Made by a program: the position numbers and the translations under genes. Of a stretch of DNA of 64,000 bases, positions 31,512-54,498 are shown piece after piece. How positions within the stretch are numbered: the first letter of the stretch is position 1; each line of letters opens with the position of its first letter. The DNA is taken from assembly GCA_022072255.1 (NCBI GenBank), contig JAJVHZ010000023.1:1-64000 (forward strand). Direction: 5' to 3'. Below the pieces are notes generated by a model that had not been told where the DNA came from, did no database searches, and saw only the letters and a program-made list of their open reading frames with translations. This stretch comes from Gammaproteobacteria bacterium. Lineage in GTDB: Bacteria > Pseudomonadota > Gammaproteobacteria > JAJPIJ01.

Positions 31512-31572
31512 CTCCGCCGCGCGTGCGCCGGCGCGGCCCGGGCGCCGGGCTGATGCGCCAGAACGGCTCGGT

Positions 31573-31578
31573 TACAAT
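31573..31578 (+). promoter_or_regulatory. Possible -10 element for a leaderless squalene synthase mRNA
   Basis: TACAAT ends seven bases before the ATG at 31585, so transcription would begin at or next to the start codon. The -35 region (CTGATG at 31550) is weak. No Shine-Dalgarno is visible before this ATG. Confidence 0.3.
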
Positions 31579-31584
31579 GCCGGG

Positions 31585-32718: not shown

Positions 32719-32844
32719 GGGGATTCAACACCGACACGGTAGCATGCGCCGGGGTAGCGCGCGTCGGACCCGTCTGTGTTGACGTCCAGCCATTCCCGCT
32801 GCTCGCAAAGTGCAGACGACTCGTCCTTTCGGGAAATACCAAAA

Positions 32845-36442: not shown

Positions 36443-39079
36443 ATGTCTGAGACCACGCCATTCCCGGAGCGCGTCGATCGCCTGATCGACGCCTGGTTCC
36501 GCTGGGTGCAGCGCCACGCGATCCCGGTGCTGGTGCTTGCCGTGGCCGCCGCGGTCGGATGCGCGGTCTACACCGTCAGGAATGTCCGCATCAACACCGA
36601 CACCGCCGACATGCTGTCGCCCGACCTGCCCTGGCGCCAGACCCAGATCCACTACCAGAAGGAGTTCCCGCAATACTCCGACACCATCGTCGTGGTCATC
36701 GATGGCGCCACCGTCGACGAGGCGCGCGACGGCGCAACCCGGCTCGCGCAGGCGCTGGCCGGACGCAACGACCTGTTCATCGAGGTCTACTACCCCCAGG
36801 GCAGCGAGTTCTTCCGGCGCAACGGCCTGCTCTACCTCGATGAGGCGGAACTCCAGGACCTTTCCGACAATCTGGCGCGCGTGCAGCCGTTTCTCGCCCG
36901 GCTCAAGGCCGATCCGACCGTGCGCGGCCTGGCCGGGCTGCTCACGGAGGCGCTGACGGAACCCGACGCCCCCGAGATCGATCTCGATTTCGCCCTTCGC
37001 CGCATCGCCGCCACGCTGCAGGCACTCGCGGAAGGGCGGCATGCGCGGATGTCCTGGGAGGAACTCATCGACGGCAAGAACGCGACGGAGGACGACAAAC
37101 GCGCGATCCTCGTCACCCGGCCGAAGCTCGATTTCGGATCGATGCTGCCGGGCGGCCCGGCGATACGCGCGATCCGCGATACCGCGGCATCGCTGGGGCT
37201 TACCGCCGGGCAGGGCGTGCGCGTGCGGCTGACGGGCGGCGCCGCGCTCGCCTATGACGAGCTCAGGAGCGTCAGCCTCGGCGCCCAGCTCGCGAGCATC
37301 GGCTCGCTGCTGATGGTCGCACTGGTGATGGTCTTCGGTCTGCGCTCCGGATGGCTCGTCTTCGCCACGCTTGCGGCACTCATCCTCGGCCTGCTGTTCA
37401 CGGCCTTCTTCGCCACGGTCGCCATCGGCGAGCTCAATCTCATCTCCGTGGCGTTCGCGGTGATGTACATCGGTCTGGGCGCCGACTACGCCATCTACCT
37501 GTGCCTGCGGTACAAGGAGATGTCCGCCGGGGATCCCGATCATCGCGACGCGCTGGCGCGGGCCGCGCGCCACGTCGGCGGCTCACTCGGGCTGTGCACG
37601 CTGACGACATCCATCGGCTTCTTCGCGTTCATACCCACCTCCTACCGCGGCGTGGCGGAGCTCGGCATCATCTCGGGCGCCGGCATGTTCATCAGCCTGT
37701 TCGTGACCCTGGTCATCCTGCCGGCCCTACTGTCGCTGCGCCGCCCCAGCCAGCGGCGGATCCCGGGGCTGCGCGCGCCGGCCGTGCTGCAAACGCTGCT
37801 GGCGGCACCGCTGCACCACAACCGCGTCGTCGTGCTCCTCGCCGCCGTGCTCGCCGTCCTGGCGGTGCTGCTCGTGCGTCATGCACGCTTCGACTACAAC
37901 CCCCTCGATCTGCAGGACCCGAAGGCCGAATCGGTCGTCGCCTACAAGTCGCTGCTCGCCGGCAACGGCCAGTCGCCGTGGACCATCGTCGCGCTGGCCA
38001 AGGACGCGAACGAGGCCAGGGCCATGAAGTCGCGCCTGCTGGATCTCGGCAGTGTCGATTCGGTGCGCACCGTCGAGGACTACGTGCCGCAGGACCAGGA
38101 CGCAAAGCTTGCGATGGTGAGCGATCTTGCACTGACCCTCGGTCCCGACCTCGGCGACCCCGCCGCCGGCGCGCAACCCGCGCCGACTTCCGAGGCGACC
38201 CTGCAGGCGCTGCGTGCGCTGAGGACGGCGCTCGGCGCGGCAAGCTCCAGGAGCCGCGACGAACTCGGCGCGCAGCTCGATGCGTTCATCGGAGATCTCG
38301 AGCGGTCCGATACCGCAGAGCGCGTGCGGCGGATCGACGCGGCGCGGCTGGCGCTGCTCGGCTCGCTGCCCGGGCGCCTGGCCGCGTTGTCCGCCTCGCT
38401 GAATCCCGGGCCGGTGACTCTCGCCTCGCTGCCCGAGGCCCTGCGGGCGCGCTGGGTCGGTGGCGACGGGCAATATCGGGTCGAGGTCGTGCCGAAGGAG
38501 AATCTGGGGGACGTGCGCGCAATGCGAGGCTTCGTCAACGAGGTCCGCCGGGAACTGCCGCATGCGACGGGCTCGCCGATCATCTACCTCGAGGCGGGCA
38601 CCGCGGTGATCAAGGCCTTCACCCAGGCGTTCATCTATGCGCTGGTCGCGATCACCGTGCTGCTGTGGGTGTCCATGAAGCGCCGCGTCGACGTGATACT
38701 GGTGCTGACGCCGCTGCTGCTCGCCGCGCTGTACACCGGCGCGGCCACGGTGCTGATCGGCATGCCCTTCAATTTCGCCAACATCATCGCGCTGCCGCTG
38801 CTGCTCGGCATGGGCGTCGATAACGGCATACACATGGTTCACCGTTTTCGCACCGCCCCGCCGGAGGACGGCCTGATGCTGAACACCAGCACCGCCACCG
38901 CCATCGGTCTGAGCGCGATGACCAACGCCAGCGGCTTCGGCAACCTGGCCATCTCGCCGCACGCCGGCACGGCCAGCATGGGTGTCATACTCACGATCGG
39001 GATTATCATCACGCTGGCCTGCACGATGCTCGTGCTGCCCAGCCTGATGAGCCTCCTGTACCGATCGTCGCGCGCCTGA
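36443..39079 (+). CDS. hpnN: Hopanoid transporter HpnN (RND/MMPL family)
   Basis: This 878-residue inner-membrane protein has about 12 helices in the RND arrangement. Helix 1 (about 28-48) and a large periplasmic loop are followed by five helices, then the pattern repeats. The sterol-sensing-like segments VMYIGLGADYAIYL and LLGMGVDNGIHMVH carry the charged GxDY and GxDN positions used for proton coupling. In Rhodopseudomonas and Burkholderia HpnN is needed to move hopanoids to the outer membrane. It lies between the oxygenase and the first phosphatidyltransferase, with short gaps, so co-transcription is likely. HpnM and MlaA at the end of the island may take lipids over in the periplasm. Confidence 0.93.
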   Translation: MSETTPFPERVDRLIDAWFRWVQRHAIPVLVLAVAAAVGCAVYTVRNVRINTDTADMLSPDLPWRQTQIHYQKEFPQYSDTIVVVIDGATVDEARDGATRLAQALAGRNDLFIEVYYPQGSEFFRRNGLLYLDEAELQDLSDNLARVQPFLARLKADPTVRGLAGLLTEALTEPDAPEIDLDFALRRIAATLQALAEGRHARMSWEELIDGKNATEDDKRAILVTRPKLDFGSMLPGGPAIRAIRDTAASLGLTAGQGVRVRLTGGAALAYDELRSVSLGAQLASIGSLLMVALVMVFGLRSGWLVFATLAALILGLLFTAFFATVAIGELNLISVAFAVMYIGLGADYAIYLCLRYKEMSAGDPDHRDALARAARHVGGSLGLCTLTTSIGFFAFIPTSYRGVAELGIISGAGMFISLFVTLVILPALLSLRRPSQRRIPGLRAPAVLQTLLAAPLHHNRVVVLLAAVLAVLAVLLVRHARFDYNPLDLQDPKAESVVAYKSLLAGNGQSPWTIVALAKDANEARAMKSRLLDLGSVDSVRTVEDYVPQDQDAKLAMVSDLALTLGPDLGDPAAGAQPAPTSEATLQALRALRTALGAASSRSRDELGAQLDAFIGDLERSDTAERVRRIDAARLALLGSLPGRLAALSASLNPGPVTLASLPEALRARWVGGDGQYRVEVVPKENLGDVRAMRGFVNEVRRELPHATGSPIIYLEAGTAVIKAFTQAFIYALVAITVLLWVSMKRRVDVILVLTPLLLAALYTGAATVLIGMPFNFANIIALPLLLGMGVDNGIHMVHRFRTAPPEDGLMLNTSTATAIGLSAMTNASGFGNLAISPHAGTASMGVILTIGIIITLACTMLVLPSLMSLLYRSSRA

Positions 39080-39093
39080 GGACCACCGCGGAC

Positions 39094-39693
39094 ATGGCCA
39101 TGGACAAGCCCTGGGATGCGATGCTCGCGGCGCGACTCGTGGCGCCGCTTCGCGCCACGGCGGTCACGCCCAACCATCTGACGACCGTGCGGCTGATCAC
39201 CGGGCTTGCCGGCGTGTACCTGCTGGCCCGCGGCGCCCTGAATGCCGGGGCCTGGCTGGTCGCCCTGTCGACCTTCCTCGACCACACCGACGGGGAACTG
39301 GCGCGCATGACGGGCAAGGGATCGCGCCTGGGCCACATCTACGATCTCGCCTCCGACGCGGTCATCACCATCGGCATGTTCCTCGGTCTGGGCATGGGTC
39401 TGGCCGGCATCACCGGCAGCCATTCGGCCACGGCCCTGGGCGCCGTCGCGGGTGTGAGCGTGGCCGGCATCTTCCCGATGCGCCACGACATGGAGGCACG
39501 CCTGGGCAAGGTCGCCACGCGCCAGCCGAACTTCGCGGGGTTCGAACCCGAGGACATACTCTATCTGTTCCCACTGGTCACTCATGGAGGATACGCGATG
39601 GGATTTCTGAAGCTGACGGCCGTGGGCGCGCCGGCGGCGGCGCTGGTCGTCCTGGCGCTCTTTATTCGCAGCCGCAGAGGCGCCTCGGCATGA
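39094..39693 (+). CDS. CDP-alcohol phosphatidyltransferase family membrane protein (intact motif)
   Basis: The 199-residue integral membrane enzyme has the complete CDP-alcohol phosphotransferase signature: Asp63, Asp66, Gly67, Ala70, Arg71, Gly80, Asp84 and Asp88. That is the D-x2-DG-x2-AR-x8-G-x3-D-x3-D pattern with the catalytic Asp88 present. It can be expected to transfer a CMP-linked head group between a CDP-activated molecule and an alcohol. The usual partners are diacylglycerol, glycerol phosphate or inositol; here CMP-aminoethylphosphonate is a possible donor. The next gene, hpnA, starts inside its stop codon (ATGA overlap), so the pair is translationally linked. Which lipid it makes cannot be read from the sequence. 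Confidence 0.87.
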   Translation: MAMDKPWDAMLAARLVAPLRATAVTPNHLTTVRLITGLAGVYLLARGALNAGAWLVALSTFLDHTDGELARMTGKGSRLGHIYDLASDAVITIGMFLGLGMGLAGITGSHSATALGAVAGVSVAGIFPMRHDMEARLGKVATRQPNFAGFEPEDILYLFPLVTHGGYAMGFLKLTAVGAPAAALVVLALFIRSRRGASA

Positions 39694-40685
39694 CCACGTT
39701 CGTCACGGGCGCGACGGGATTCGTCGGCTCCGCCGTCGTCCGCCACCTGCTCTCCGAACAGATCCCCGTGCGGGTGCTCGCGCGGCCGAACAGCGATCGC
39801 CGCAACCTGGAAGGGCTGGACCTCGAGGTCGTCGAGGGCGATCTGCGCGATCGCGCATCGCTGGAGCGGGCGATGAAGGGCTGTCTCGCGCTGTTCCATG
39901 TCGCCGCGGACTACCGGCTGTGGGCACGCGACGTGCAGGAGCTCTATCGCAGCAACGTCGAGGGCACGCGCAATATCATGCTGGCCGCCGGCGAGGCGGG
40001 CGTAGAGCGCATCGTCTACACCAGCAGTGTCGCGACACTCGGGCTCAACCCGGAAGGCGTGCCCTCCAACGAGGACACGCGCGTCAGCATCCAGGACATG
40101 ATCGGCGACTACAAGCGCTCCAAGTACATGGCCGAGGACGAGGTGCGCAGGCTGGTGCGCAAGGATCGGCTGCCGATCGTGATCGTGAATCCGTCGACCC
40201 CGATCGGTCCCCACGACATCAAGCCCACGCCCACCGGGCGGCTGATCCTCGACGCGGCGCGCGGACGCATGCCTGCCTACGTCGACACGGGACTGAATCT
40301 CGTGCACGTCGACGACGTCGCCGCGGGCCACATCGCCGCGTTCCGCCGCGGCGTGATCGGCGAGCGCTACATCCTCGGAGGGGAGAATCTCTGGCTGAAG
40401 GAGATACTCGAACGCATCGCCACCATCTCGGGCCGCAGGCCACCTCGCCTGAGGCTGTCGCATTCCACGGTGATGCCCATTGCGCGACTATCGGAGTTCA
40501 TGGGACGGGTCACCTACGGGCTGTGGGAACCGAGGGCCACCGTCGACGGCATCAAGATGGCGAGGAAGCTGATGTTCTTCTCCAGCGCGAAGGCGATGCG
40601 TGACCTGAACTACCACCCCCGGCCCGCCGACGAGGCGCTGCGCGACGCCGTCGACTGGTTCCTGCATTTCTGGAAGCCGCGCTGA
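39690..40685 (+). CDS. hpnA: Hopanoid-associated NAD-dependent epimerase/dehydrogenase HpnA
   Basis: HpnA is a short-chain dehydrogenase of the extended (epimerase) type, recurrent in hopanoid clusters but without a firmly assigned reaction. The 331 residues start with the NAD-binding GATGFVG (7-13), then the TSSVATLG strand and the catalytic YKRSK (Tyr141, Lys145). NPSTPIGP and LNLVHVDDVAAGH are typical for the HpnA group. It overlaps the phosphatidyltransferase gene by four bases and ends the rightward operon: the next gene is on the other strand. It may act on the sugar-like hopanoid side chain, perhaps with the glycosyltransferase HpnB. Confidence 0.9.
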   Translation: MTTFVTGATGFVGSAVVRHLLSEQIPVRVLARPNSDRRNLEGLDLEVVEGDLRDRASLERAMKGCLALFHVAADYRLWARDVQELYRSNVEGTRNIMLAAGEAGVERIVYTSSVATLGLNPEGVPSNEDTRVSIQDMIGDYKRSKYMAEDEVRRLVRKDRLPIVIVNPSTPIGPHDIKPTPTGRLILDAARGRMPAYVDTGLNLVHVDDVAAGHIAAFRRGVIGERYILGGENLWLKEILERIATISGRRPPRLRLSHSTVMPIARLSEFMGRVTYGLWEPRATVDGIKMARKLMFFSSAKAMRDLNYHPRPADEALRDAVDWFLHFWKPR

Positions 40686-40924: not shown

Positions 40925-41926
40925 TCACGGCGCCGCGGCAGGTTGCACGGGCGAACGCAGGGAATATGACCAATAGATCGCCAGTCCCGCCACTACCCAG
41001 ATCAGCTCCCGGCAACGCCGGACCACGGACATCGTGACGCCGGTGGAGGCCACGCCCGTGACCGCGCGGCACGCCACGAGAAACGTTCCCTCCTGAACAC
41101 CGACGGCGGCGGGGATGAAGAAGGCACTGGTGCGCATGAGCTGCGCCAGTGCCTCGATGATCCATGCCTCGGCGAAGCTCACCGGATGACCGATGAACCC
41201 GAGCACGAGGTAGACCTCCAGCGCCCCCAGCACCCAATTGGCGAACCCCAGCGCCAGCGCCGCCAGGAACGCGAGCGGTTTGCTGCGATAGAACTGCACC
41301 ATATGCTCGTCGAAATCCTCCAGGCCGTGCACCACGCCCTCGAGGCTGCGGCCGAAACGCGTGCGCGAGAGTTTGCGGGTCAGCCAGGAACTGAGCTTGA
41401 ACCACTGTATGGCCAGGAACTGCAGGACGCCGATCGCCACACCGCCCAGGCCGACGGCGGCAACCACCTTCATGCTCTGCGGGAACGCCTCGGAGAAGAA
41501 CATGAAGACGAAACCCACGCCGAGAAACAGCAGCAGCGCGATGATATTGACGGTGCGCGCGAGCAGCAGCGTCGCCGCACCTTCCCGGTACGGGACGCGA
41601 TAGTGCGTCTTCAGCAGCACGGCCTTGAACGGCTCCCCGCCCATCGATGCGGCGGGCAGTATGTAATTGAAGGCCTCACCGGCCAGGCGCACTGCGTACA
41701 ATCGCCGCGTCCAGCGCAGGCCGCGCGGCGGGATGGAGTTGAACGTGTACTGCCAGCCGGCCACGTCGGTCCAGAACGTCACCACGTGCAGGCCGATGAC
41801 GATGGCGAAACCGCTGAATCCCACCTTGGCCAGATCGCCGCCGACCTGCCTCCAGTCGACCGCGCTCAGGACCTTCGCGAGCAGCAGCAACCCGATGACG
41901 AGGAAGATGTATTTCGCGTATTTCAC
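40925..41926 (-). CDS. UPF0104/AglD-type flippase-like membrane protein
   Basis: The 333 residues give eight or so membrane helices of the lysylphosphatidylglycerol-synthase transmembrane family (TIGR00374, UPF0104). The MGGEPFKAVLLK motif with GE is the family's marker, and EALAQLMRTSAFFIPAAVGVQEGTF is the second conserved block. These proteins are believed to flip or help move lipid-linked intermediates; HpnL of hopanoid clusters belongs to the same superfamily, but I cannot say this is HpnL. The start is GTG 41926, with helix 1 immediately after it; an earlier in-frame reading lacks membrane character. It is the only gene between hpnA and dxs on the minus strand and is divergent from the GFA gene. 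It may carry phosphonolipid or hopanoid precursors. Confidence 0.8.
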   Translation of the reverse strand: MKYAKYIFLVIGLLLLAKVLSAVDWRQVGGDLAKVGFSGFAIVIGLHVVTFWTDVAGWQYTFNSIPPRGLRWTRRLYAVRLAGEAFNYILPAASMGGEPFKAVLLKTHYRVPYREGAATLLLARTVNIIALLLFLGVGFVFMFFSEAFPQSMKVVAAVGLGGVAIGVLQFLAIQWFKLSSWLTRKLSRTRFGRSLEGVVHGLEDFDEHMVQFYRSKPLAFLAALALGFANWVLGALEVYLVLGFIGHPVSFAEAWIIEALAQLMRTSAFFIPAAVGVQEGTFLVACRAVTGVASTGVTMSVVRRCRELIWVVAGLAIYWSYSLRSPVQPAAAP

Positions 41927-42039
41927 CGCGCAAGTGTACAGCGATCCACCGCCCCCTGCCGCGGCGACGGCCGGGCGCCATCGGCATCGAATGTCCCGGC
42001 GAGGCCGCGTCCGCGCGGCAGAGCGGCTATGATCCGCAG

Positions 42040-42456
42040 ATGGGCGATCCAATCCTGAGCGGCGGGTGCCTGTGCGGAGCAGTCCGCTACAGCGTCAGCG
42101 GCAGGCCGGTCGACTGCGGATATTGCCACTGCCGGATCTGCCAGCGCGCCAGCGGCGCACCGCTGGTCGCCTGGGCGACCGTCCCGGCGGAGTGTCTGAC
42201 CATCACCGCCGGAGTTCCGCAGGCATATGCCTCCTCGGCGCACGCGCTCCGCCAATTCTGCGCACGCTGCGGAACCCCGATCAGCTTCCGAAGTCAGCGC
42301 AGCCCCACGCACGTGGATATCACGATCGCCAGTCTCGACGATCCTTCCTCGCTGCCGCCGCAATACCACATCTGGACCATGAGCCAGGTCCCGTGGCTGA
42401 AGGTCGATGACCACCTGCCCCGGCACGCCGATGGCGGGCCGGACCGGCTTACTTGA
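42040..42456 (+). CDS. GFA / CENP-V domain zinc protein
   Basis: This 138-residue protein has the glutathione-dependent-formaldehyde-activating (Gfa, CENP-V) fold. It shows GGCLCGAVRY (Cys10, Cys12), CHCRICQ (about 29-35) and the late FCARCGTPI pair that completes the zinc sites. Despite the name, most members have no proven formaldehyde role. It is a short soluble protein encoded 114 bases from the divergently read flippase-like gene and 249 bases before the second phosphatidyltransferase operon. Its link to the lipid genes is positional only. The C-terminal 20 residues are unconserved. Confidence 0.85.
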   Translation: MGDPILSGGCLCGAVRYSVSGRPVDCGYCHCRICQRASGAPLVAWATVPAECLTITAGVPQAYASSAHALRQFCARCGTPISFRSQRSPTHVDITIASLDDPSSLPPQYHIWTMSQVPWLKVDDHLPRHADGGPDRLT

Positions 42457-42705: not shown

Positions 42706-43329
42706 ATGCCACAAACTGAAATGCCCTACGATCAGCGCCTGGCCAGTTGGCTCGTGCGACCGCTCGTCAACACGCCGGTGCACCCGAACCACCTGACAGC
42801 CCTGAGCTTCCTGTTCGGCGTCATGGCCTCGGCGCTGTTCGCGTTTGGCGGGCGGGAGTACGCGAATCTCGCCGCCGGCATCTACATGCTGGCGGTCTTC
42901 ACCGACCATACCGACGGCGAGCTTGCCCGCCAGTCCGCCAAGACCAGTCCGCTCGGCCACAAGCTCGACTTCATCGTCGGCGGACTCAACTACACGCTGT
43001 TGTTCTGCGGCATCGGCATCGGCCAGTGGCACGGACAGCTCGGAACCGCCGGGCTGCTGCTGGGCCTGGCTGCCGGCCTGTCGAATCCGTTCATCCTGCG
43101 GCTGCGGCTGCGGCTCGACGCGCGATGGGGCAAGCAGGCCTGGAGGCATCCCCATGCCGGTGGCTTCGAACTGGAAGATTTCATCTACCTGATCGGTCCC
43201 ATCACCTGGACGCTCGGCCTGCCGTACTTCTTCGTCCCGTATGCCGTGGGCACCCTGGGATACCTGGTGTGGACCATCATCGAATGCCGCCGCTGGGCTC
43301 GCGGCGACGCCATCGGCGGCACAACCTGA
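42706..43329 (+). CDS. CDP-alcohol phosphatidyltransferase family protein lacking the catalytic Asp
   Basis: The 207-residue membrane protein resembles the enzyme at 39,094 (both have PNHLT near the start and DHTDGELAR), so they are probably paralogues. Its motif holds Asp67, Asp70, Gly71, Ala74, Arg75, Gly84 and Asp88. The position of the fourth aspartate, proposed as catalytic base in this family, is Gly92. Either this subfamily uses another base, or the protein is a non-catalytic partner, or activity is lost. It heads the group with the 2OG oxygenase, nucleotidyltransferase and PEP mutase fusion. This makes it the natural candidate for joining the phosphonate to a lipid, which the missing residue complicates. 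Confidence 0.84.
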   Translation: MPQTEMPYDQRLASWLVRPLVNTPVHPNHLTALSFLFGVMASALFAFGGREYANLAAGIYMLAVFTDHTDGELARQSAKTSPLGHKLDFIVGGLNYTLLFCGIGIGQWHGQLGTAGLLLGLAAGLSNPFILRLRLRLDARWGKQAWRHPHAGGFELEDFIYLIGPITWTLGLPYFFVPYAVGTLGYLVWTIIECRRWARGDAIGGTT

Positions 43330-43347
43330 GAACGGGCACGGATTGGC

Positions 43348-44079
43348 ATGACCGACATCAACGCCGCGCTCGACGCGCACATTCGCACCCTGGACTTGGC
43401 CTCGCTCCGGCGCAGGTTCCTGGAGCAGGACGAGGCGCTGGTCATCGAGAACTTTCTGCCGCAGACCGTCGCCGACGCGCTGCTCGCGGCGCTGCCGCGG
43501 GTGCATCCCAGCGTGAACCGCAACTATCTGCCCGGTCACAAGAAGGGCGGCAGCGTCAGCCGCTTCGATCTGGACCGGCTCGCGCCGGAGTTTCCCGAGC
43601 TCTACCGCTCCGCGGCGCTGACGGATTTCCTCCGGGTGCTGACCGGCGTGGAGCTGCTGCCCTGCCCCGCCAGCGACCCGCATACCTACGCGCTCTACTA
43701 TTACACGCAGCCCGGCGATCACATCAGCTGGCACTACGACACCTCGTATTACAGGGGCGCCCGGTACACGGCCCTTTTCGGGCTGGTCGACCGTTCCAGC
43801 TGCAGACTCGAGTTCGAGCTCTATCGCGGCCGCAAGGATCGCCCGGGCGAGCAGCACAGCATCGAGCTCACGCCCGGCACCTTCGTCATCTTCAACGGCG
43901 ACAGGCTTTGGCACCGGGTCACGCCCGCGGGCGAGAACGAGGAACGCATCGTGTTGACGCTCGAATACCTCACCAGCGCCAGGATGAGCAGCTTCGGCCG
44001 CTTCGTCTCCAACATGAAGGACGCCGTGGCCTATTTCGGCTTCCGCCAGGTGTTCGGAAGGGCGGCTGGCAAGTCGTGA
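43348..44079 (+). CDS. 2-oxoglutarate/Fe(II)-dependent oxygenase
   Basis: The 243-residue protein is a 2OG-Fe(II) oxygenase of the prolyl-hydroxylase-like type. It shows His129-x-Asp131 (SWHYDTSYY), a distal His189 (RLWHRVTP) and the 2-oxoglutarate Arg200 (ERIVLTLEY). It is soluble and unrelated to the PhyH enzyme at 35,624 except in fold. It starts 18 bases after the preceding phosphatidyltransferase, so it belongs to that operon. A role in hydroxylating the phosphonate head group or a lipid chain is a reasonable guess; hydroxylated aminoethylphosphonate lipids are known from Bdellovibrio. Nothing in the sequence fixes the substrate. Confidence 0.84.
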   Translation: MTDINAALDAHIRTLDLASLRRRFLEQDEALVIENFLPQTVADALLAALPRVHPSVNRNYLPGHKKGGSVSRFDLDRLAPEFPELYRSAALTDFLRVLTGVELLPCPASDPHTYALYYYTQPGDHISWHYDTSYYRGARYTALFGLVDRSSCRLEFELYRGRKDRPGEQHSIELTPGTFVIFNGDRLWHRVTPAGENEERIVLTLEYLTSARMSSFGRFVSNMKDAVAYFGFRQVFGRAAGKS

Positions 44080-44173
44080 GCGGTGTCGATGCGGCAGCGG
44101 CGGCCCGACCCGCCGCGACGCGTTGCGCTCGCCAGTCACCCATCGCCAGGCACGATTCACGAACCATCGTTCG

Positions 44174-44911
44174 ATGAGAGCCATCATCCTTGCCGCCGGC
44201 TACGGCCGGCGCCTCGCCGCCGCCCATCAGGGCCCCAAGGCCCTGCTCGAGTTCGGCGGCAAGACACTCCTGCAGCGTCACCTGGAGAACCTGGCCGCCC
44301 GCGGCACGGATCACATCGCCGTCTGCGTCGGTTACGAGGCCGGCATGCTGCGCGAGGCGATCGAGGCGAGCGGCCATGCGACCCGCGTGTCCACCGTCCT
44401 GAACCCCGCCTATCGCGAGGGCAGCGTCGTCAGCCTGTGGACGATGCGCCATTACCTCGACGCCGGCGGAGAGGTGCTGCTGATGGATGCCGATGTGCTC
44501 TACCACCCGGCGCTGCTGGACCGCCTGCAGCACACCGCCCGGCCGAACTGCTTCCTGCTCGACAGGGATTTCGAGCCCGGATTGGAGCCGGTCAAGCTGT
44601 GCGTGCGCACCGGCGCCCTGGTGGAGTTCCGCAAGCAACTCGCCGAGGGGCTACAATACGACTTCGCCGGCGAATCGGTGGGCTTTTTCCGCTTCGGGGA
44701 GGACATGGCCCGGCAGCTGGCGCGCAAGACCGAGGAATACGTCGGCAACGGCCGCCGCGAGGAGCCCTACGAGGAGGCGATCCGCGACCTGTTGCTGGAG
44801 CGGCCGGCCGAGTTCGATTACGAGGACATCACCGGCACGCCCTGGGTCGAGATAGATTTCCCCGAGGACATTGCGCGAGCCACCACCAAGATACTGCCGC
44901 ACCTGACGTGA
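44174..44911 (+). CDS. Nucleotidyltransferase (LicC-like sugar/choline-phosphate NTP transferase)
   Basis: The 245 residues are a single NTP-transferase domain. It opens with [10 protein letters not shown] (5-14) and [14 protein letters not shown], has the metal-binding DADVLY (about 96-101), and ends with VEIDFPEDI. It is closest in style to the LicC/phosphocholine cytidylyltransferases, which make CDP-linked head groups. The next gene starts inside its stop codon (GTGA overlap), so it is translationally coupled to a PEP mutase fused to a second nucleotidyltransferase. Two such domains side by side suggest two activated head groups or a division of labour. The start ATG at 44174 lacks an obvious ribosome site; an earlier in-frame start at 44123 is possible. 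Confidence 0.85.
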
Positions 44912-46563
44912 ACAGCCCCGAGAACATCAATCCGCCCCTGAGTCGCGCCGCTCAGCTGCGGCGCCTGCTGCTGTCGCCCGAACTGGAATTCATCATGGAG
45001 GCGCACAACGGCCTGTCCGCGCGCATCGTCGAGGAGGCCGGCTTCAGTGGCATATGGGCCAGCGGCCTCGCGCTTTCCGCGCAGTTCGGCGTGCGCGACA
45101 ACAACGAGGCGAGCTGGACACAGGTCGTGGACGTGCTGGAGTTCATGACCGACGTCACCCGCGTCCCCATCCTGCTCGACGGCGATACCGGCTATGGAAA
45201 CTTCAACAACATGCGTCGGCTCGTGCGCAAGCTCGGGCAGCGCGGCGTGGCCGGGGTATGCATCGAGGACAAGCTGTTTCCCAAGTCCAACAGCTTCATC
45301 GACGGCGAGCGCCAGCCGCTGGCCGACGTCGAGGAGTTCTGCGGCAAGATCAAGGCCGGCAAGGACAGCCAGCACGACGACGACTTCTGCATCGTCGCGC
45401 GTATCGAGGCCCTGATCGCCGGATGGGACATGAAGGAGGCACTGCGCCGCGCCGAGGCCTACCGGCAGGCGGGCGCCGACGCCATCCTCATCCACAGCAA
45501 GCTCTCGCGGCCCGACGAGATCCTCACCTTCGCAAGGGAGTGGGGAAACCGCGCGCCGGTCGTGATCGTCCCCACCAAGTACTACTCCACGCCGGTGGCG
45601 ATGTACCGGCGCGCCGGGATAAGCCTGGTCATCTGGGCCAACCACATGGTCCGCGCCGCCGTACGCGCCATGCAGTCGGTCGCCGCCGAGGTGCGCGCGA
45701 CCGAGAGCCTGCTGAACGTCGAGGACCGTATCGCCTCGGTCAACGAGATCTTCCGCCTGCAGGGTGCCGATGAGCTGAAGGAGGCCGAGCTGCGCTACGC
45801 CGGCGGCACGCAGAGCCGCGTGCAGGCAATCGTGCTCGCCGCCAGCCGGGGCGAGGAACTCGACCGGCTCACGCAATCCCGGCCGAAGGTGATGCTGCCG
45901 ATCAGCGGCAAGCCGCTCCTGCGCCGGCTGGTAGACGAGTTCAAGAAGCAGGGCATAAACGATACGACCGTGGTTGCCGGCTACCGCGCCGACGCGATCA
46001 ACGTTCCCGGCGTGAAGGTGACGGTAAACGCGGAATACGCCAGCACCGGCGAGCTGGCCTCGCTCTCGTGCGCGCAGCGGGACTTCGCCGACAACATGGT
46101 CATCCTCTACGGCGACCTGCTGTTCCGCAGCTACATCCTGCGGGATGCGCTGGAGCACGAGGGCGAGATCGTGACGGTGGTCGATTCCGCCCTCTCCACG
46201 AACCATGTCAGCGGCTCGCCGGACTACGCCTGGTGCTCGGCGGCCGACGATCGCGCCGTCATCGATCATGACGTGACGCTGGAGCGCATCGACGAGGACG
46301 CGGACAGCGGCCCCGGCCCCTGCCACGGACGCTGGATCGGAATACTGCGAATCCGTGGCGCCGGCCGGAAGTGGCTCGCCGAGGCGCTGGGCGAGCTGAA
46401 GCAGCGCCCGGACTATCATTCCCTGGGCCTGCCCCACGTACTCAATCACCTCGTGCAGCGCGGCCGCCCGGTGCGTGTGCTCTATATCAACGGCCACTGG
46501 CTGGACGTGAATTCCCTCGAGGACCTCGATCGGGCGGGCGACTTCACGCAGGGCAACGCCTGA
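44908..46563 (+). CDS. Phosphoenolpyruvate mutase fused to a nucleotidyltransferase domain
   Basis: This 551-residue protein has two parts. Residues 1-295 are phosphoenolpyruvate mutase, which makes phosphonopyruvate, the committed step of nearly all phosphonate pathways. DGDTGYGN (91-98) and the hallmark EDK-x5-N (120-128, here EDKLFPKSN) are intact. Residues 303-545 are an NTP transferase with an altered opening loop ([12 protein letters not shown]) followed by [14 protein letters not shown]. It resembles the cytidylyltransferases that activate 2-aminoethylphosphonate as CMP-AEP. The GTG start overlaps the preceding nucleotidyltransferase stop. Phosphonopyruvate decarboxylase follows after a 393-base gap. 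The fusion suggests that the product of the whole pathway is destined for CMP activation. Confidence 0.92.
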
Positions 46564-46956
46564 TCTGAGCAGGGATCGTCCCGCTCAGCTCCACTCCACC
46601 GCAAGGAATTGCTGTGGCCGCGCACGCCACTGGAATCGGCTGACGTTCGATCAATCGGGTTTTCCGGGCGCGCCTTTGCGGATTGGTCAATTCGAAGCCC
46701 CGGCAATCGCCGATCGGCGGCGGTACCGGGTGTGTTTCCATGACCCTCGGCCGCATGGATGCGGCCGCGGAGCGTACATGGACGTATTCACAGCGTGTCA
46801 TGGAAACATACCCGGTGCTGCCGCAAGGCGCTCCGATCGAAGTCCTCAAGAAGAGATTCGTAGGCGCTTAGAGGAGTCGAATACACACGAGACCTGGCGA
46901 AGCAATACAATAGCGACCGCACAATTCACGACCACACCCACAGCTCACCACCGAAA
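46564..46956. other. Non-coding gap with two hairpins
   Basis: This 393-base stretch between the PEP mutase fusion and the decarboxylase has no gene I trust. At its start a ten-pair stem with one bulged A (46565-46588) lies two bases after the stop codon and could mark a 3' end, though there is no T-tract. A perfect nine-base palindrome follows at 46748-46767. A TACAAT (46906-46911) lies about 45 bases before the next ATG with no good -35. Confidence 0.5.
46748..46767. repeat. Perfect inverted repeat
   Basis: CGGCCGCAT (46748-46756) and ATGCGGCCG (46759-46767) are exact complements around a two-base centre. It could be an operator for a dimeric regulator or a hairpin. It lies about 190 bases upstream of the decarboxylase gene. 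Confidence 0.5.
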
Positions 46957-48108
46957 ATGATCAAGGCCGAAGAATTCGTCGAAGCCGCGCGCGCGCTGGG
47001 CTACGGCACCTACGCCGGCGTGCCCTGCTCGTTCCTGACGCCGTTCATCAACTGCGTCATCAACGACGAGCGGTTGAAATACATCTCCTCGGCCAACGAG
47101 GGCGACGCGCTGGCCACGGCCTGCGGCGCGGCGATCGGCGGGCGCCGCGCGGTGGCCATGATGCAGAACTCCGGCCTCGGCAACGCGGTCAGCCCGATCA
47201 CCTCGCTGAGCTACGTCTTCCGCATCCCGCTTCTCATCATCTGCACCCATCGCGGCGCGCCCGGCGTGCACGACGAACCGCAGCACGAGCTGATGGGGCA
47301 GATCACCAGCGAGATGTTCGATCTCATGCGCGTGCCGTGGGAGACCTTCCCGATGCACGCGCAGGACATCGGACCGGCGCTGCAGCGAGCCCGCGACTAC
47401 CTGGAACGCGAGCGACGGCCGTATGGGCTCATCATGCAGAAGGGTACCGTCGACAGACATGCCCTGAAGAAGAAGACGCCGGGACTGCCGACGCGCGCAG
47501 GCAGGCTGGTGCACGCCGATACCCGGCGCAGGACCCCGCGACTGACGCGCAATGACGCGCTCAGGCACATCATCGACCTCACCCCGGCCGCCGACACGAT
47601 CGTGATTGCCACGACCGGCTACACCGGCCGCGAGCTCTACGCCATCGACGATCGCGTCAATCAGCTCTACATGGTCGGCTCCATGGGCTGTGCCTCGTCC
47701 CTGGGTCTCGGACTGGCGCTTGCGAAGCCGGAGAAGAAGGTAGTCGTGATCGACGGCGATGGCGCCGCGCTGATGCGCATGGGCAATTTCGCGACGCTGG
47801 GGGCCTACGGTCCGGACAACCTCGTGCACGTCGTGCTCGACAACGAGGCACACGACTCCACCGGCGCGCAGGCGACGGTGACCGCTGGCGTGAGCTTCGC
47901 CGCCATCGCGCTGGCCTGCGGTTACGGGCTGTGCGTCAGCGGCGAGGACTCCGGCGTGCTGGACCGCGTCCTGCAGGCTGACGACAGCGGTCCGAAGTTC
48001 GCACACCTGAAGATCGCTACCGGCACCATCGAGGACCTGCCGCGGCCGAAGGTGACGCCGCCGCAGGTGCTGGACCGGCTGATGTCGCACGTCGGCAGCC
48101 GGTTCTGA
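46957..48108 (+). CDS. Phosphonopyruvate decarboxylase
   Basis: This thiamine-diphosphate enzyme removes CO2 from phosphonopyruvate to give phosphonoacetaldehyde, pulling the unfavourable mutase reaction forward. The 383 residues start with the Pyr-binding half (catalytic Glu48 in SANEGDA). They end with the PP-binding half, whose GDG...N motif (267-269 to Asn296, GDGAALMRMGNF) holds magnesium and the cofactor. This is the single-chain form usual in proteobacteria, and no part is missing. Transaminase follows 66 bases downstream. Sulfopyruvate decarboxylases have a similar fold, but the PEP mutase next door decides for phosphonopyruvate. Confidence 0.93.
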   Translation: MIKAEEFVEAARALGYGTYAGVPCSFLTPFINCVINDERLKYISSANEGDALATACGAAIGGRRAVAMMQNSGLGNAVSPITSLSYVFRIPLLIICTHRGAPGVHDEPQHELMGQITSEMFDLMRVPWETFPMHAQDIGPALQRARDYLERERRPYGLIMQKGTVDRHALKKKTPGLPTRAGRLVHADTRRRTPRLTRNDALRHIIDLTPAADTIVIATTGYTGRELYAIDDRVNQLYMVGSMGCASSLGLGLALAKPEKKVVVIDGDGAALMRMGNFATLGAYGPDNLVHVVLDNEAHDSTGAQATVTAGVSFAAIALACGYGLCVSGEDSGVLDRVLQADDSGPKFAHLKIATGTIEDLPRPKVTPPQVLDRLMSHVGSRF

Positions 48109-48174
48109 GCAGGAGGCCGCCTTCCTGCATCGCCAAGACCACGTGACGCATCACCGGGGATACTCAACCGCGAC

Positions 48175-49272
48175 ATGAACAGACCCGACGTCAGGCCGCT
48201 GCTGTTGCTGAATCCCGGTCCCGTCACGCTGAGCGCGCGCGTGCGCGCGGCGCTGGGCGGCCCCGATCTCTGTCATCGCGAACCGGAATTCGCCGAGCTC
48301 CAGCGCGCAATCCGCGAGCGGCTGCTGCAGGTCTATGGACTCGACCCGCAGCGTTACGCCGCCATCCTGATGACTGGCTCCGGAACCTCGGCGATGGAGG
48401 CGATGATCGCCAGCCTCGGCCCCGCGACCAGCAAGATGCTGATCATCGAGAACGGCGTCTACGGCGAACGCCTCGCGAGGATTGCCGCCATCCACGGCAT
48501 ACCCAGCGTCCCCATGACACTGAAGTGGGGCGAGGCGATCGACAACGCGCGTCTGCGCGCGCTGCTCGACGAGCACCAGGGCGTCTCGCACCTGGCGATG
48601 GTGCATCACGAGACGACGACCGGGCGGCTCAACGCTATCGAACCCGTCGCGCGCCTGTGCGGCGAGCGTCGGGTGACCCTGTTGCTGGATGCCGTCAGCA
48701 GTTTCGGCGCCGAGGAACTCGATTTCCACGGCTGGGACATCGCCGGCTGCGCGGCGACGGCCAACAAGTGCCTGCACGGCGTGCCCGGCGCCTCCTTTGT
48801 CATCGCGCGCCGCGACGCACTCGACGACGACGACATCCCGCAGCGTACGCTGTACCTGGATCTCGCCACCTACTGCCGCGAGCAGGACAAGGGCGGCACT
48901 CCGTTCACCCAGTCGGTGCAGACCTTCTACGCGCTGGCCGAGGCGCTCGCGGAGTTCCAGGAGCACGGCGGGTGGCACGCGCGCCACCGGCGCTACAGGG
49001 CGCTGGCGGAGCAGGTGCGGTCCGGACTCATCGCCCTGGGAATAAGGCCCCTGCTGCCCGAGGGCGCCTCCTCCGTCGTGCTCAACAGCTACCACCTGCC
49101 CGCCAACGTCACCTACGAACGCCTGCACGGCCACTTGAAGACGCACGGCTTCGTCATCTACTCCGGCCAGGGCATTTACGGAAAATCGATCTTCCGGATC
49201 TCGACCATGGGCGAGATCACGGGCGCGGACATGCAACGCCTGGTCGCGGCGGTCGGTGAACTGCTGCGGTGA
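48175..49272 (+). CDS. 2-aminoethylphosphonate--pyruvate transaminase
   Basis: The 365-residue class V aminotransferase has the PLP lysine in ATANKCLHG (Lys198), the cofactor-stacking VSSFGAE segment and the LNPGPVTLS start typical of the PhnW family. Here it most likely runs in the synthetic direction, converting phosphonoacetaldehyde to 2-aminoethylphosphonate with an amino donor. There is no phosphonoacetaldehyde hydrolase (PhnX) nearby, which argues against a degradation pathway. It completes the three-step PEP-to-AEP route. The next gene, dxs, is convergent; a perfect nine-base inverted repeat lies between them. Confidence 0.93.
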   Translation: MNRPDVRPLLLLNPGPVTLSARVRAALGGPDLCHREPEFAELQRAIRERLLQVYGLDPQRYAAILMTGSGTSAMEAMIASLGPATSKMLIIENGVYGERLARIAAIHGIPSVPMTLKWGEAIDNARLRALLDEHQGVSHLAMVHHETTTGRLNAIEPVARLCGERRVTLLLDAVSSFGAEELDFHGWDIAGCAATANKCLHGVPGASFVIARRDALDDDDIPQRTLYLDLATYCREQDKGGTPFTQSVQTFYALAEALAEFQEHGGWHARHRRYRALAEQVRSGLIALGIRPLLPEGASSVVLNSYHLPANVTYERLHGHLKTHGFVIYSGQGIYGKSIFRISTMGEITGADMQRLVAAVGELLR

Positions 49273-49324: not shown

Positions 49325-51217
49325 TCAGGCGAGTTGGACGGCCCGCGCGTCCCGGCCCTGCTGCCGGGATTCGATCGCGCGCACCAGCTCTTCGCGCGTG
49401 AAACCGGCCTCCCTGCGCATGTCCTCCTGCGAGCCGTGCTGCAGCATGGCGTCCGGCAGCCCGAAATTCAGCACTGGCACGAGCACGCCGCGGGCGGCGA
49501 GCACCTCGTTGACAGCGCTGCCGCAGCCGCCCGCGATGACGTTCTCCTCCACCGTGACGATGAGATTGTGCGTCTCGGCCATCTGCAGGATGAGCGCCTC
49601 GTCCAGCGGCTTGATGAATCGCATGTTCGCCACCGTGGCGTCGATTTCCTCGGCTGCCGCCAGCGACATCGCCAAAGGCGTGCCGAAGGCCAGGATTGCG
49701 ACGTCTTTGCCCCGACGCCGCACCTCGGCCTTGCCGACGGGCAGCGCGAGCATTTCCTTCTCGGGCACCGCACCGGTGCCGCTGCCGCGCGGATATCGCA
49801 CGGCGGCCGGCATGTCGAGCGTGTAGGCCGTATGGAGCATCTGCCGGCATTCGTTTTCGTCGGACGGCGCCATCAGCACGATGTTCGGCAGGCAGCGCAT
49901 GAAGCTGACGTCGTAGCTGCCGTTGTGCGTCGGGCCGTCGTTGCCCACGCAGCCCGCACGGTCGATGGCGAAGACCACGGGCAGCTTCTGCAGGCAGACA
50001 TCGTGCACCACCTGATCGTAGCCGCGCTGCAGAAAGGTGGAGTAGATCGCAACCACGGGTTTCAGGCCGTCGCAGGCCATGCCGGCGGCGAGCGTGACGG
50101 CGTGCTGCTCGGCAATGGCGACGTCGTAGTACTGCGCGGGAAACTGCTCGTGGAACTTCACCAGGCCCGAGCCTTCGCGCATTGCCGGGGTGATGGCGAC
50201 GAAGCGCTTGTCCTGCGCCGCCATGTCGCAGCACCACTCGCCGAAGACGTCGCTGAAGGTCATCCTGCCGGGCTTGCCGCTCGGCTGGATGCCGAGCTCC
50301 GGGTCGAACGGCGCCGAGATGCCGTGATACTTCACCGGATCGTCCTCGGCGGGCGCATAGCCCTTGCCCTTGCGCGTGATGATGTGCAGGAGCTGCGGTC
50401 CCTTCAGCTCGTGGATGTTGCGCAATGTGTGCACCAGCGCATACAGGTCGTGCCCGTCGATGGGTCCGATGTAGTTGAACCCGAACTCCTCGAACAGCGT
50501 GCCCGGAACGATGAGTCCCTTGACGTGCTCCTCGGCGCGGCGCGCCAGCTCCCAGACCGGCGGCATGTGCGAGAGCACCTTCTTGCTGCCCTCGCGGATG
50601 GTGGTGTAGAGCTTGCCGGAGAGGATCTGCGCGAACCGGCTCGACAGCGCGCCGACGTTCGGGGAGATCGACATGTTGTTGTCGTTCAGGATCACCAGCA
50701 TGTCCGTGCCGAGATCCCCGGCGTGGTTGAGGGCCTCGAAGGCCATGCCGGCGGTCAGCCCGCCGTCGCCGATGATGGCGACCGCCTTGCGGTGGCTGCC
50801 GGTCTTCCGTGCGGCGATGGCCATGCCGAGCGCCGCCCCGATCGAGGTGCTGGAGTGGCCGACCCCGAAGGTGTCGTACTCGCTCTCGTCGCGCTTCGGG
50901 AAGGGTGCCAGGCCGTCCTTCTTTCGAATGGTGAGGATGCGGTCGCGGCGGCCCGTGAGGATCTTGTGCGGGTAGGCCTGGTGGCCGACGTCCCAGACCA
51001 GCCGGTCATCGGGGGTGTTGTAGACGTAATGCAGTGCGATGGTCAGCTCGATGGTGCCGAGACCAGCGGCGAAATGGCCGGTGCTCTGGCTGACAGACTC
51101 GACCAGGAAGTTACGCAGTTCGGTCGCGACCGCCTCGAGCTGCGACTCCGGCAGGCGGCGCAGGTCTGCAGGCGAGGCAATCCGACTCAGTAATGGGTAA
51201 CGGCCGTTGGGTGACAT
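49325..51217 (-). CDS. dxs: 1-deoxy-D-xylulose-5-phosphate synthase
   Basis: Dxs joins pyruvate and glyceraldehyde 3-phosphate in the first step of the MEP isoprenoid pathway, which feeds farnesyl diphosphate to squalene. The 630 residues are full length, with conserved histidines (His48, His79), the ThDP-binding GDG (150-152, GDGGLTAGM), DNNMSIS, and the C-terminal transketolase part ([17 protein letters not shown]). It lies on the minus strand between the AEP transaminase and hpnH. Placing it in a hopanoid island is common in bacteria that make much isoprenoid. No ispA is adjacent. Confidence 0.96.
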
Positions 51218-51415: not shown

Positions 51416-52561
<1,146 letters not shown>

Positions 52562-52619: not shown

Positions 52620-53735
52620 ATGGCAACCGCAATCCTGATCCTTGCCCTGCTCGTCGCCGCCAGCGTGCTGCTGCTGCCGTGGCAGCCATGGTCGACGCGC
52701 GAGTCGCTCGACGCCGCGGCGGACTCGCACGCCGAGGATCTCGCCGACGTCACCGTGCTGATCCCGGCGCGCAACGAGGCCGCGGTGATTGGCGAAACGC
52801 TCGCGGGCCTGGCAGCGCAGGGCAGGAACCTGACAGTACTGGTCATCGACGACCAGTCCAGCGACCCCACGGCGGAGGTCGTGCGCGCCAGCGGCCTGCC
52901 TGGTGTCGAGGTGATCGCCGGCCAGGCGCTGCCCGCCGGCTGGAGCGGCAAACTCTGGGCGCTCGAGCAGGGACGCGGCCAGGTGCGCACTCCCCTCACG
53001 CTGCTCCTCGACGCGGACATCGTGCTGAGACCGGGGGCACTGGCCGCGCTGCGCCGGAAGCTGCAGCAGGGCCATCTCGATCTGGTCTCGCTCATGGCGC
53101 ACCTCGGCATGCAGTCGCCGCACGAAAAGCTCCTGCTGCCCGCCTTCGTCTACTTCTTCAAGCTCATTTACCCCTTCAGGCTTGCCAATGACCCGCGCCG
53201 GCGCACGGCCGCGGCCGCGGGCGGCTGCGTCCTGCTGCGCACCGTGGTGCTGAACCGGATCGGCGGGTTCAATGCGGTCAGGGGCGCGTTGATAGACGAC
53301 TGCAGCCTCGCTGCCGCCGTCAAGGCCGCAGGCGGCCGCACCTGGATCGGTCTCACCCATTCCGCGGTCAGCCGGCGCCGTTACACGACGGCGGAGATCT
53401 GGAACATGATCGCGCGCACCGCCTACACACAGTTGCGCTACTCGCCGGCGCTGCTTGCCGCCTGCACCGCACTGATGACCCTCTATTACCTGGTACCGCC
53501 GGCGGCCATGCTCGGCCTGCTGCCGGGCGATGCCGCGCTCGGCGCCGCGATCTACCTGCTGGGTGTGCTGCCCTATGTTCCGACGCTGCGCTATTACCGC
53601 CTCTCGGCAGCATGGGCGCTGCTGCTCCCGCTCATCGCGGCGTGCTACCTCGCGATGACCTGGAGCTCGGCGTCGCGCTACTACCGTGGCGAGCGATCGC
53701 GGTGGAAGGGCCGCGTCTACCAACGCTCACCCTGA
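52620..53735 (+). CDS. hpnB: Hopanoid-associated glycosyltransferase HpnB
   Basis: This 371-residue family 2 glycosyltransferase has an N-terminal membrane helix (3-20) and the GT-A domain, with VLIPARNEAAVIG (about 45-57), VIDDQSS and the metal-binding LLDADI (about 125). GALIDDCSLAAAV follows, then two or three C-terminal helices. The PLPAGWSGKLWAL-type segment and DPRRRTAAAAGGC are specific to HpnB. HpnB recurs in hopanoid clusters, and its exact sugar acceptor is not established. It starts immediately after a hairpin, so its expression may depend on read-through from hpnH. hpnM follows after about 120 bases. Confidence 0.88.
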   Translation: MATAILILALLVAASVLLLPWQPWSTRESLDAAADSHAEDLADVTVLIPARNEAAVIGETLAGLAAQGRNLTVLVIDDQSSDPTAEVVRASGLPGVEVIAGQALPAGWSGKLWALEQGRGQVRTPLTLLLDADIVLRPGALAALRRKLQQGHLDLVSLMAHLGMQSPHEKLLLPAFVYFFKLIYPFRLANDPRRRTAAAAGGCVLLRTVVLNRIGGFNAVRGALIDDCSLAAAVKAAGGRTWIGLTHSAVSRRRYTTAEIWNMIARTAYTQLRYSPALLAACTALMTLYYLVPPAAMLGLLPGDAALGAAIYLLGVLPYVPTLRYYRLSAAWALLLPLIAACYLAMTWSSASRYYRGERSRWKGRVYQRSP

Positions 53736-53856
53736 CCGCGCCCGTGCGGGAGGCTGCGCGCGCCGGATGGCCGGATGACCCGCGGAGGTGTAACGTTTTG
53801 AACTATTGCGCATCCACTTTCGTCACAGTACGCGTACCCACAGGAGGGTCCAGTCC

Positions 53857-54498
53857 ATGCGTACCATTCGCAGTCTGATCGCGGCCGCGGCGCTGCTGGT
53901 CATGGTCACCGGCGCGCACGCGACCGATGCCGGCGATCCGGCGGCACCGGTTGCGAAACTGCACGACGTGCTGCTCGACATCATGAAGCGCGCCGACGGG
54001 CTCGGCTACCGGGGCCGATTTTCCGCGATCGAACCGGTCGTCAGCCAGACCTTCGATTTCCCCGCGATAGGCCGCATCGTCATGGGCAAGTACTGGGCCG
54101 GGCTGGCCGAGCAGGAACAGAAGGGATTCCTCGAAACCTTCGCCAAGCTGAGCGCCGCCACCTACGCGGCGCGCTTCGATGGCTACGACGGCGAGTCGTT
54201 TCGCACGGTCAGCGACGAAAAACAGAATGAAAACAATGCATTGGTGAAGACAGAGCTGGTGAAGGGCAACGGCGAGACCGTCAGCCTCAACTACCAGTTG
54301 CGCACAGATACCGATGGGAAATGGCGCATCTTGAACGTCGTTGCCGATGGTATAAGCGATCTTTCGTTAAAGCGCGCGGAATATGCGTCGATAATGAGTA
54401 GCGATGGCTATCCTGCGCTGATGGCGAAACTCAATGCTAAGATCGCGCAGTACGAGGCGGATGGCGCCGCAGCAGCCGGCTCGGGAAAGACCAGGTAA
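53857..54498 (+). CDS. hpnM: HpnM / MlaC-type periplasmic phospholipid-binding protein
   Basis: The 213 residues begin with a signal peptide (MRTIRSLIAAAALLVMVTGAHA, cut near residue 22) and continue as an MlaC/Ttg2D (toluene tolerance) domain, with GYRGRFSAIEPVVSQTFDF and YDGESFRTVSDEK. This fold carries lipids across the periplasm. The HpnM subgroup is found in hopanoid clusters. A good AGGAGG site lies eight bases before the ATG at 53857; an in-frame start at 53806 would add 17 residues and spoil the signal peptide. It precedes mlaA by 56 bases, forming a lipid-shuttle pair. Confidence 0.9.
   Translation: MRTIRSLIAAAALLVMVTGAHATDAGDPAAPVAKLHDVLLDIMKRADGLGYRGRFSAIEPVVSQTFDFPAIGRIVMGKYWAGLAEQEQKGFLETFAKLSAATYAARFDGYDGESFRTVSDEKQNENNALVKTELVKGNGETVSLNYQLRTDTDGKWRILNVVADGISDLSLKRAEYASIMSSDGYPALMAKLNAKIAQYEADGAAAAGSGKTR

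Follow-up and report, generated by a model that had tools for sequence, protein, structure and literature searches.

The window analysed here is a 64,000-nucleotide stretch (positions 1 to 64,000 of contig JAJVHZ010000023.1) from a gammaproteobacterial metagenome-assembled genome (MAG), in which genes for the synthesis of 2-aminoethylphosphonate (AEP) lie inside an island of hopanoid (hpn) genes. The core of this AEP cassette consists of four plus-strand genes: NTP1, a standalone PntC-like cytidylyltransferase (44174–44911) that matches T. denticola PntC (6pd1) over its full length (6.8e-14); pepM-ntp2, a fusion of phosphoenolpyruvate (PEP) mutase to a MobA-like NTP transferase domain (44908–46563; PF13714 8.4e-62, PF12804 3.3e-13); ppd, encoding phosphonopyruvate decarboxylase (46957–48108); and aepT, encoding AEP aminotransferase (48175–49272). 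Calls of AEP and hpn families were made with the curated NCBIfam cut-offs. A first-pass annotation of the same DNA had placed PEP mutase, the decarboxylase and the transaminase between hpnA and hpnH, and all three scored over their cut-offs at that place: 398.2 bits against 319.55 for PEP mutase (TIGR02320), 434 against 312.5 for Ppd (TIGR03297) and 398.1 against 360.8 for AepT (TIGR03301). The motifs it had named (EDK-x5-N, GDG and Lys198) were each verified in the respective protein. PEP mutase carries the EDKxxxxxNS motif, with EDKLFPKSN at residue 120; Ppd has GDG, the thiamine pyrophosphate site, at residue 267; and Lys198 is the pyridoxal phosphate lysine of AepT. Its statement that phosphonate degradation genes are absent also held among the window proteins scanned. 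The stop codon of NTP1 and the start of pepM share a four-base overlap. We rejected the reading of the 826-aa frame at 44083–46563 as one protein, because NTP1 has a gene of its own, which the frame overlaps, and 44908 is where the fusion has its conserved start.

Shc, HpnA, HpnB, HpnH, HpnM and HpnN of the surrounding island exceeded the curated cut-offs, while HpnG and HpnL fell below theirs. Upstream of the cassette, and on the plus strand, are shc/hpnF for squalene-hopene cyclase (32776–34836; TIGR01507, 813 bits), hpnG for the hopanoid-associated phosphorylase (34833–35552; TIGR03468, 186.3 bits, slightly below 187.1), hpnN for the hopanoid RND transporter (36443–39079; TIGR03480, 1034 bits) and hpnA for the hopanoid-associated epimerase (39690–40685; TIGR03466, 498 bits against 368). 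A minus-strand gene for an HpnL-like membrane protein of the LPG_synthase_TM type (40925–42052; PF03706; TIGR03476, 152 bits, below 195.65) and a GFA-domain gene separate hpnA from the cassette. Downstream, dxs for 1-deoxyxylulose-5-phosphate synthase (49325–51217, minus strand; TIGR00204, 906 bits) lies between aepT and hpnH, the gene for adenosyl-hopene transferase (51416–52561; TIGR03470, 552 bits against 225). Then follow, on the plus strand like hpnH, hpnB for the hopene-associated glycosyltransferase (52620–53735; TIGR03469, 391 bits), MlaC-like hpnM (53806–54498; TIGR03481, 211 bits) and a gene for an MlaA-like lipoprotein (54555–55292; PF04333, 4.6e-72).

The CDP-alcohol phosphatidyltransferases and nucleotidyltransferases that the first-pass annotation had placed alongside were found as two genes of the former kind and NTP1, but the fusion of the mutase to a second NTP transferase domain had escaped it. 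CDP-alcohol phosphotransferase 1 (39094–39693, plus strand; PF01066), upstream of hpnA, is a candidate AEP-lipid transferase. It has the full motif DxxDGxxAR(x8)GxxxDxxxD, which its homologues in Beta-, Alpha- and Gammaproteobacteria and cyanobacteria (all lineages compared) also keep, and its relatives include archaeal CDP-alcohol phosphotransferases and human CEPT1 (matches to AF2299, 4mnd and, at 4e-6, CEPT1). This motif and kinship fit transfer of AEP from its cytidine monophosphate conjugate (CMP-AEP) to a lipid hydroxyl. The second gene, cdpAP2 (42706–43329, plus strand; PF01066), departs from the full motif, the last Asp being Gly; it may be inactive or altered, and for the loss of this Asp we set it aside as the lipid transferase. 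When aligned with T. denticola PntC, NTP1 retains the AAGxGxRL and PK nucleotidyltransferase motifs and has Glu at PntC position 196 and Asp at position 104; in T. denticola PntC, Glu104 and Glu196 contact the AEP amine (PMC6697681). A 2-oxoglutarate (2OG)-Fe(II) oxygenase gene (43348–44079, plus strand; PF23169/PF13640) keeps HxD...H, yet it is absent from several lineages, which points to a role in tailoring rather than in the core.

For comparison among genomes we defined the cassette as standalone NTP1, the PepM-NTP2 fusion, Ppd and AepT, usually joined by a CDP-alcohol phosphotransferase and HpnL and often by the 2OG oxygenase. The four-gene block with its surroundings was recovered in 6 of 56 sampled relatives, the source genome counted, and in those six it adjoins dxs and hpnH-hpnB-hpnM-mlaA wherever the contigs allow. 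In a scan of genome contigs that found 451 relatives, of which the best 80 were kept, gammaproteobacterial loci of sufficient length mostly had the cassette followed by dxs on the opposite strand and hpnH. Two arrangements were seen upstream, one with shc, hpnG, hpnN, the CDP-alcohol phosphotransferase, hpnA, hpnL and the oxygenase, and the other with kinase-like, CBS-domain and glucose-6-phosphate isomerase-like genes, as we read their sequences. The cassette and hpnH were 4–11 kb apart in ten gammaproteobacterial genomes from seven families.

Altogether, the cassette stands among hpn genes in at least seven gammaproteobacterial families, three Burkholderiaceae genera, Nostocales cyanobacteria and on a Roseomonas plasmid. 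Linkage within 15 kb (8–15 kb) was found in 16 of 17 genomes of Burkholderiaceae genus g308, 2 of 4 of Mycetohabitans (g471) and 3 of 3 of g476; the remaining Mycetohabitans genomes have the cassette and hpnH on separate contigs, and in other genera of the family the two are unlinked or on different contigs. The order in Mycetohabitans rhizoxinica is CDP-alcohol phosphotransferase, 2OG oxygenase, LPG-synthase-TM (HpnL-like), NTP1, PepM, Ppd, AepT, dxs, hpnN, hpnM, ispH, hpnH, hpnA, hpnB, shc. On the Roseomonas marmotae plasmid, NTP1, PepM-NTP2, Ppd, an HpnL-like gene, AepT and a CDP-alcohol phosphotransferase lie within a complete hpn cluster, between hpnN/VacJ and ispH-hpnH-hpnG-shc-hpnE-hpnD-hpnC-hpnB-hpnA; its PepM is 65% and its NTP1 48% identical to those of the window, the latter belonging to the same NTP1 family. 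In cyanobacteria, the cassette occurs with HpnI and HpnA-HpnH in Brasilonema and with HpnI and HpnJ in Hassallia. The HpnJ label was rejected for a 549–550-aa radical SAM protein (in locus L050, and the first in L061) with only weak PhpK-like matches; HpnJ in L061 is a 481-aa protein. The first-pass annotation had named repeated linkage of PEP mutase with hopanoid genes in distinct lineages as its test, and the linkage recurs strongly, in gammaproteobacterial families, Burkholderiaceae, cyanobacteria and Roseomonas. The arrangement is thus not unique to one genome, and we reject chance proximity, since the order recurs in other families and phyla.

HpnL accompanies the cassette even where hpnH does not: a Cupriavidus cassette far from hpnH still carries it (TIGR03476, 327 against 196). 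At L096 (8001–9164) and L100 (8130–9173), HpnL over the family cut-off lies with the AEP module and outside the main hpn cluster, no other hpn gene being nearby, which bears on the function of HpnL.

The cassette is nearly confined to genomes that encode HpnH. Of 369 gammaproteobacterial genomes, 30 had PepM and 50 had HpnH; the NTP1-PepM-NTP2 cassette was present in 22 genomes from 10 families, 21 of them with HpnH, although two of the 22 cassettes are cut by contig ends so that some genes are unseen there. The remaining genome (G198) carries the cassette on a short contig, with hpnG next to it. By comparison, HpnH was absent from all 8 genomes of this sample whose PepM is of another type (Fisher 1.5e-19 for the cassette association). 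Among 190 Burkholderiaceae genomes, the cassette query matched 102, every one with HpnH (102/102; HpnH overall 126/190; Fisher 7e-31), and at the genus level the cassette occurred in 11 of the 25 sampled genera, all 11 with HpnH. One cyanobacterial order gave 5 matches in 149 genomes, all five with HpnH, but HpnH is present in 69 of the 149, making the association weak (p = 0.02), and three of the five matches belong to a more distant type. HpnH was present in 42 of the 43 contig-locus genomes tested, some of which are also among the samples above. These counts are not independent, as species within a genus share history. Treating just any PEP mutase as evidence was rejected, given the other PepM types (0/8) and the distant alphaproteobacterial PepM fusions, which have HpnH in only 2 of 6. 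One genome without HpnH has two equal-score PEP mutase copies of another type about 27 kb apart (G050:C3:48294 and 75221). In the three cyanobacteria with the more distant type (L213, L214 and L215), one stop codon interrupts the match to pepM-ntp2, so that each domain may have its own gene; a LicC/PntC-like cytidylyltransferase lies nearby at one of these loci.

The history of the cassette differs from that of hpnH. For PepM, cyanobacterial and gammaproteobacterial sequences are on average as similar to one another as the gammaproteobacterial ones are among themselves (mean identity 77 vs 77). The same holds for NTP1 (55 vs 53), NTP2, Ppd and AepT, whereas identity between the two groups is lower for HpnH (55 vs 76) and HpnA (46 vs 66). 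In trees built by a quick method, the cyanobacterial cassettes nest in Gammaproteobacteria, with gammaproteobacterial monophyly rejected (p-AU 2e-5), while for HpnH the two groups are each separate (support 94 for the gammaproteobacterial clade). This indicates that the cassette moved between phyla independently of hpnH. The transferred cyanobacterial cassette is still near native hpn genes (HpnA, HpnH, HpnI or HpnJ). Simple vertical inheritance is rejected by the cyanobacterial trees as a full account; the order within Gammaproteobacteria may be ancestral.

From the families to which the proteins belong, PepM would convert PEP to phosphonopyruvate, Ppd would convert this to phosphonoacetaldehyde, AepT would form AEP, NTP1 would activate it to CMP-AEP, and the CDP-alcohol phosphotransferase would transfer the AEP phosphonyl group to the hydroxyl of a membrane lipid. 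With a bacteriohopanepolyol (extended hopanoid) as acceptor, the product would be a phosphonohopanoid. Where it occurs, the 2OG oxygenase may hydroxylate AEP or the lipid; HpnL may flip the AEP-lipid product, and HpnN, HpnM and MlaA may carry it to the outer membrane. The link between AEP genes and hopanoids is real and recurrent, and probably functional. Its distribution points to a membrane lipid with a phosphonate group that has yet to be described; this lipid may be a hopanoid carrying AEP.

Most likely, CMP-activated AEP goes onto a membrane lipid that acts with a hopanoid or is itself one. We read the cassette as a lipid-tailoring module of the hopanoid system, and consider an extended hopanoid the most likely acceptor because the module is nearly confined to HpnH-encoding genomes and usually carries HpnL; we give this reading a probability of slightly less than one half (about 0.48). 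Distribution and linkage both point to a hopanoid as the most likely acceptor. Slightly more tentative is the proposal that the module makes AEP-bearing hopanoids, with HpnL in their handling, in many Burkholderiaceae, several gammaproteobacterial families (a USCgamma methanotroph bin included), Nostocales and some Roseomonas. The phosphonolipid predicted by the first-pass annotation gains support from the PntC-like cytidylyltransferase and the phosphotransferase with its intact motif, but hopanoid and glycerolipid acceptors cannot be told apart by sequence. Co-regulation or shared transport with hopanoids, which it also suggested, is by itself a poorer account of the linkage, given that cassettes distant from the main hpn cluster are likewise nearly limited to hopanoid producers.

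Several observations weigh against a hopanoid acceptor, or against the module as drawn. Co-occurrence fits a hopanoid acceptor and a partner lipid alike and cannot tell between them. NTP2 has a degenerate nucleotide-binding signature (AASRG), and in Burkholderiaceae it has lost a likely metal-binding Asp. A search within 10 kb at about a dozen loci with the second gammaproteobacterial arrangement found no CDP-alcohol phosphotransferase, and none was found next to pepM in Paraburkholderia. The exception among the 43 contig-locus genomes is a Methylomirabilota MAG without HpnH, which has the PepM-NTP2 cassette on a 4.9 kb contig (L057); this is possibly a binning error, or a real exception, and both cassette genomes lacking HpnH rest on single short MAG contigs. 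Finally, a phosphonate-bearing hopanoid was not found in the literature searched, though Burkholderia hopanoid lipids have been studied.

AEP might instead be placed on a glycerolipid such as diacylglycerol. The product would then be the phosphono counterpart of phosphatidylethanolamine, dependent on hopanoids in the outer membrane or packed together with them, and the hopanoid itself would stay unmodified. Glycero- and sphingolipids that bear AEP are well established from other organisms, and the match of the CDP-alcohol phosphotransferase to human choline/ethanolaminephosphotransferase is to an enzyme whose acceptor is diacylglycerol. Glycerolipid acceptors are present in all bacteria, however, so a glycerolipid product does not require near-limitation to HpnH-encoding genomes, and the proximity to hopanoid side-chain genes, seen in several settings, is easier to explain with a hopanoid acceptor. 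We regard the glycerolipid as a serious candidate, though a rather doubtful one. Attachment of AEP to lipopolysaccharide, a surface glycan or hopanoid-bearing lipid A, with the linkage reflecting a shared envelope programme, appears unlikely: bacterial phosphonate pathways are mostly thought to tailor the cell surface through LicD-like transferases or glycosyltransferases (PMC6697681), but the conserved genes of the compared loci included no recognisable LicD-like or sulfatase-type transferase, and the conserved candidate is a CDP-alcohol phosphotransferase, of a kind that acts on membrane lipid alcohols.

The cassette might also sit in hpn islands by shared ancestry and hitchhiking, with no joint product. 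The largely conserved gammaproteobacterial order could indeed stem from one ancestral event, and several Burkholderiaceae genera have the cassette far from hpnH. Yet these unlinked cassettes still occur only in HpnH-encoding genomes, cyanobacteria gained the cassette separately from hpnH and have it near native hpn genes all the same, and Roseomonas has the same content in a differing order. Neutral co-localisation is improbable in our judgement.

The cassette is a variant of the phosphonyl tailoring (Pnt) pathway tied to hopanoids. The Pnt pathway (Rice et al. 2019, PMC6697681) uses the same AEP route through PEP mutase, Ppd, AEP transaminase and PntC, and the paper describes the PF12804-fused PEP mutase with a separate cytidylyltransferase that is seen in the window. 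It proposes surface glycan or lipid targets, with hopanoids unmentioned in the text searched; the window has a CDP-alcohol phosphotransferase and HpnL in place of LicD-type genes. The IPCT/DIPPS di-myo-inositol-phosphate system (4mnd) likewise pairs a cytidylyltransferase of the LicC/IPCT type with a CDP-alcohol phosphotransferase, and both proteins are weakly similar to those of the window, but its substrates and context are others and the window genes are separate. In several Roseomonas species, hopene cyclase was reported to be linked to a PEP mutase gene, and an undiscovered terpene-phosphonate was suggested (PMC8776678, 2021). The Roseomonas marmotae plasmid shares the core genes of the window. 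That report deals with Acetobacteraceae only, and in the text searched its gene-family analysis stops at linkage; new here are the wider distribution, the near-limitation to HpnH-encoding genomes and the transfer between phyla. Beyond PMC8776678, no paper tying hopanoids to PEP mutase was found in the literature searched, which did not reach subscription papers. Canonical hpn islands as described have no phosphonate genes; the island of the window shares shc, hpnA, hpnB, hpnG, hpnH, hpnM and hpnN with them.

Hopanoids rank among the major membrane lipids of bacteria and serve as geological biomarkers; bacterial phosphonates feed the aquatic methane and phosphorus cycles. To our knowledge, the targets of most bacterial AEP pathways are unknown. 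The functions of hpnA, hpnB and hpnL are likewise not established, according to a 2025 survey of Alphaproteobacteria (PMC12583986). The cassette, linked as it is to hopanoid producers of four lineages, offers one testable answer to both questions, in culturable hosts. Phosphonohopanoids, if real, would be a polar hopanoid class not yet described, perhaps overlooked where methods target uncharged or acetylated hopanoids, and would connect carbon–phosphorus chemistry with a lipid class that has a fossil record.

A single squalene synthase of the SQS_PSY family (31423–32718, plus strand; PF00494 6.9e-57; TIGR01559 105 bits, below cut-off) seems to provide squalene in this island, in place of HpnC-HpnD-HpnE. 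Isoprenoid precursor genes occur inside hopanoid/AEP islands, namely dxs in Gammaproteobacteria and Burkholderiaceae (window 49325–51217) and ispH in Burkholderiaceae and Roseomonas (with loci L250, L269 and L270 as further instances of such genes). Between hpnG and hpnN lies a gene for a PhyH-family oxygenase (35624–36385, plus strand; PF05721), of which a 58% identical copy is found in the Brasilonema AEP/hpn locus. Between pepM-ntp2 and ppd, at 46717–46824, there is a 28-nt inverted repeat with 89% complementarity and 52 nt spacing, which contains a smaller hairpin.

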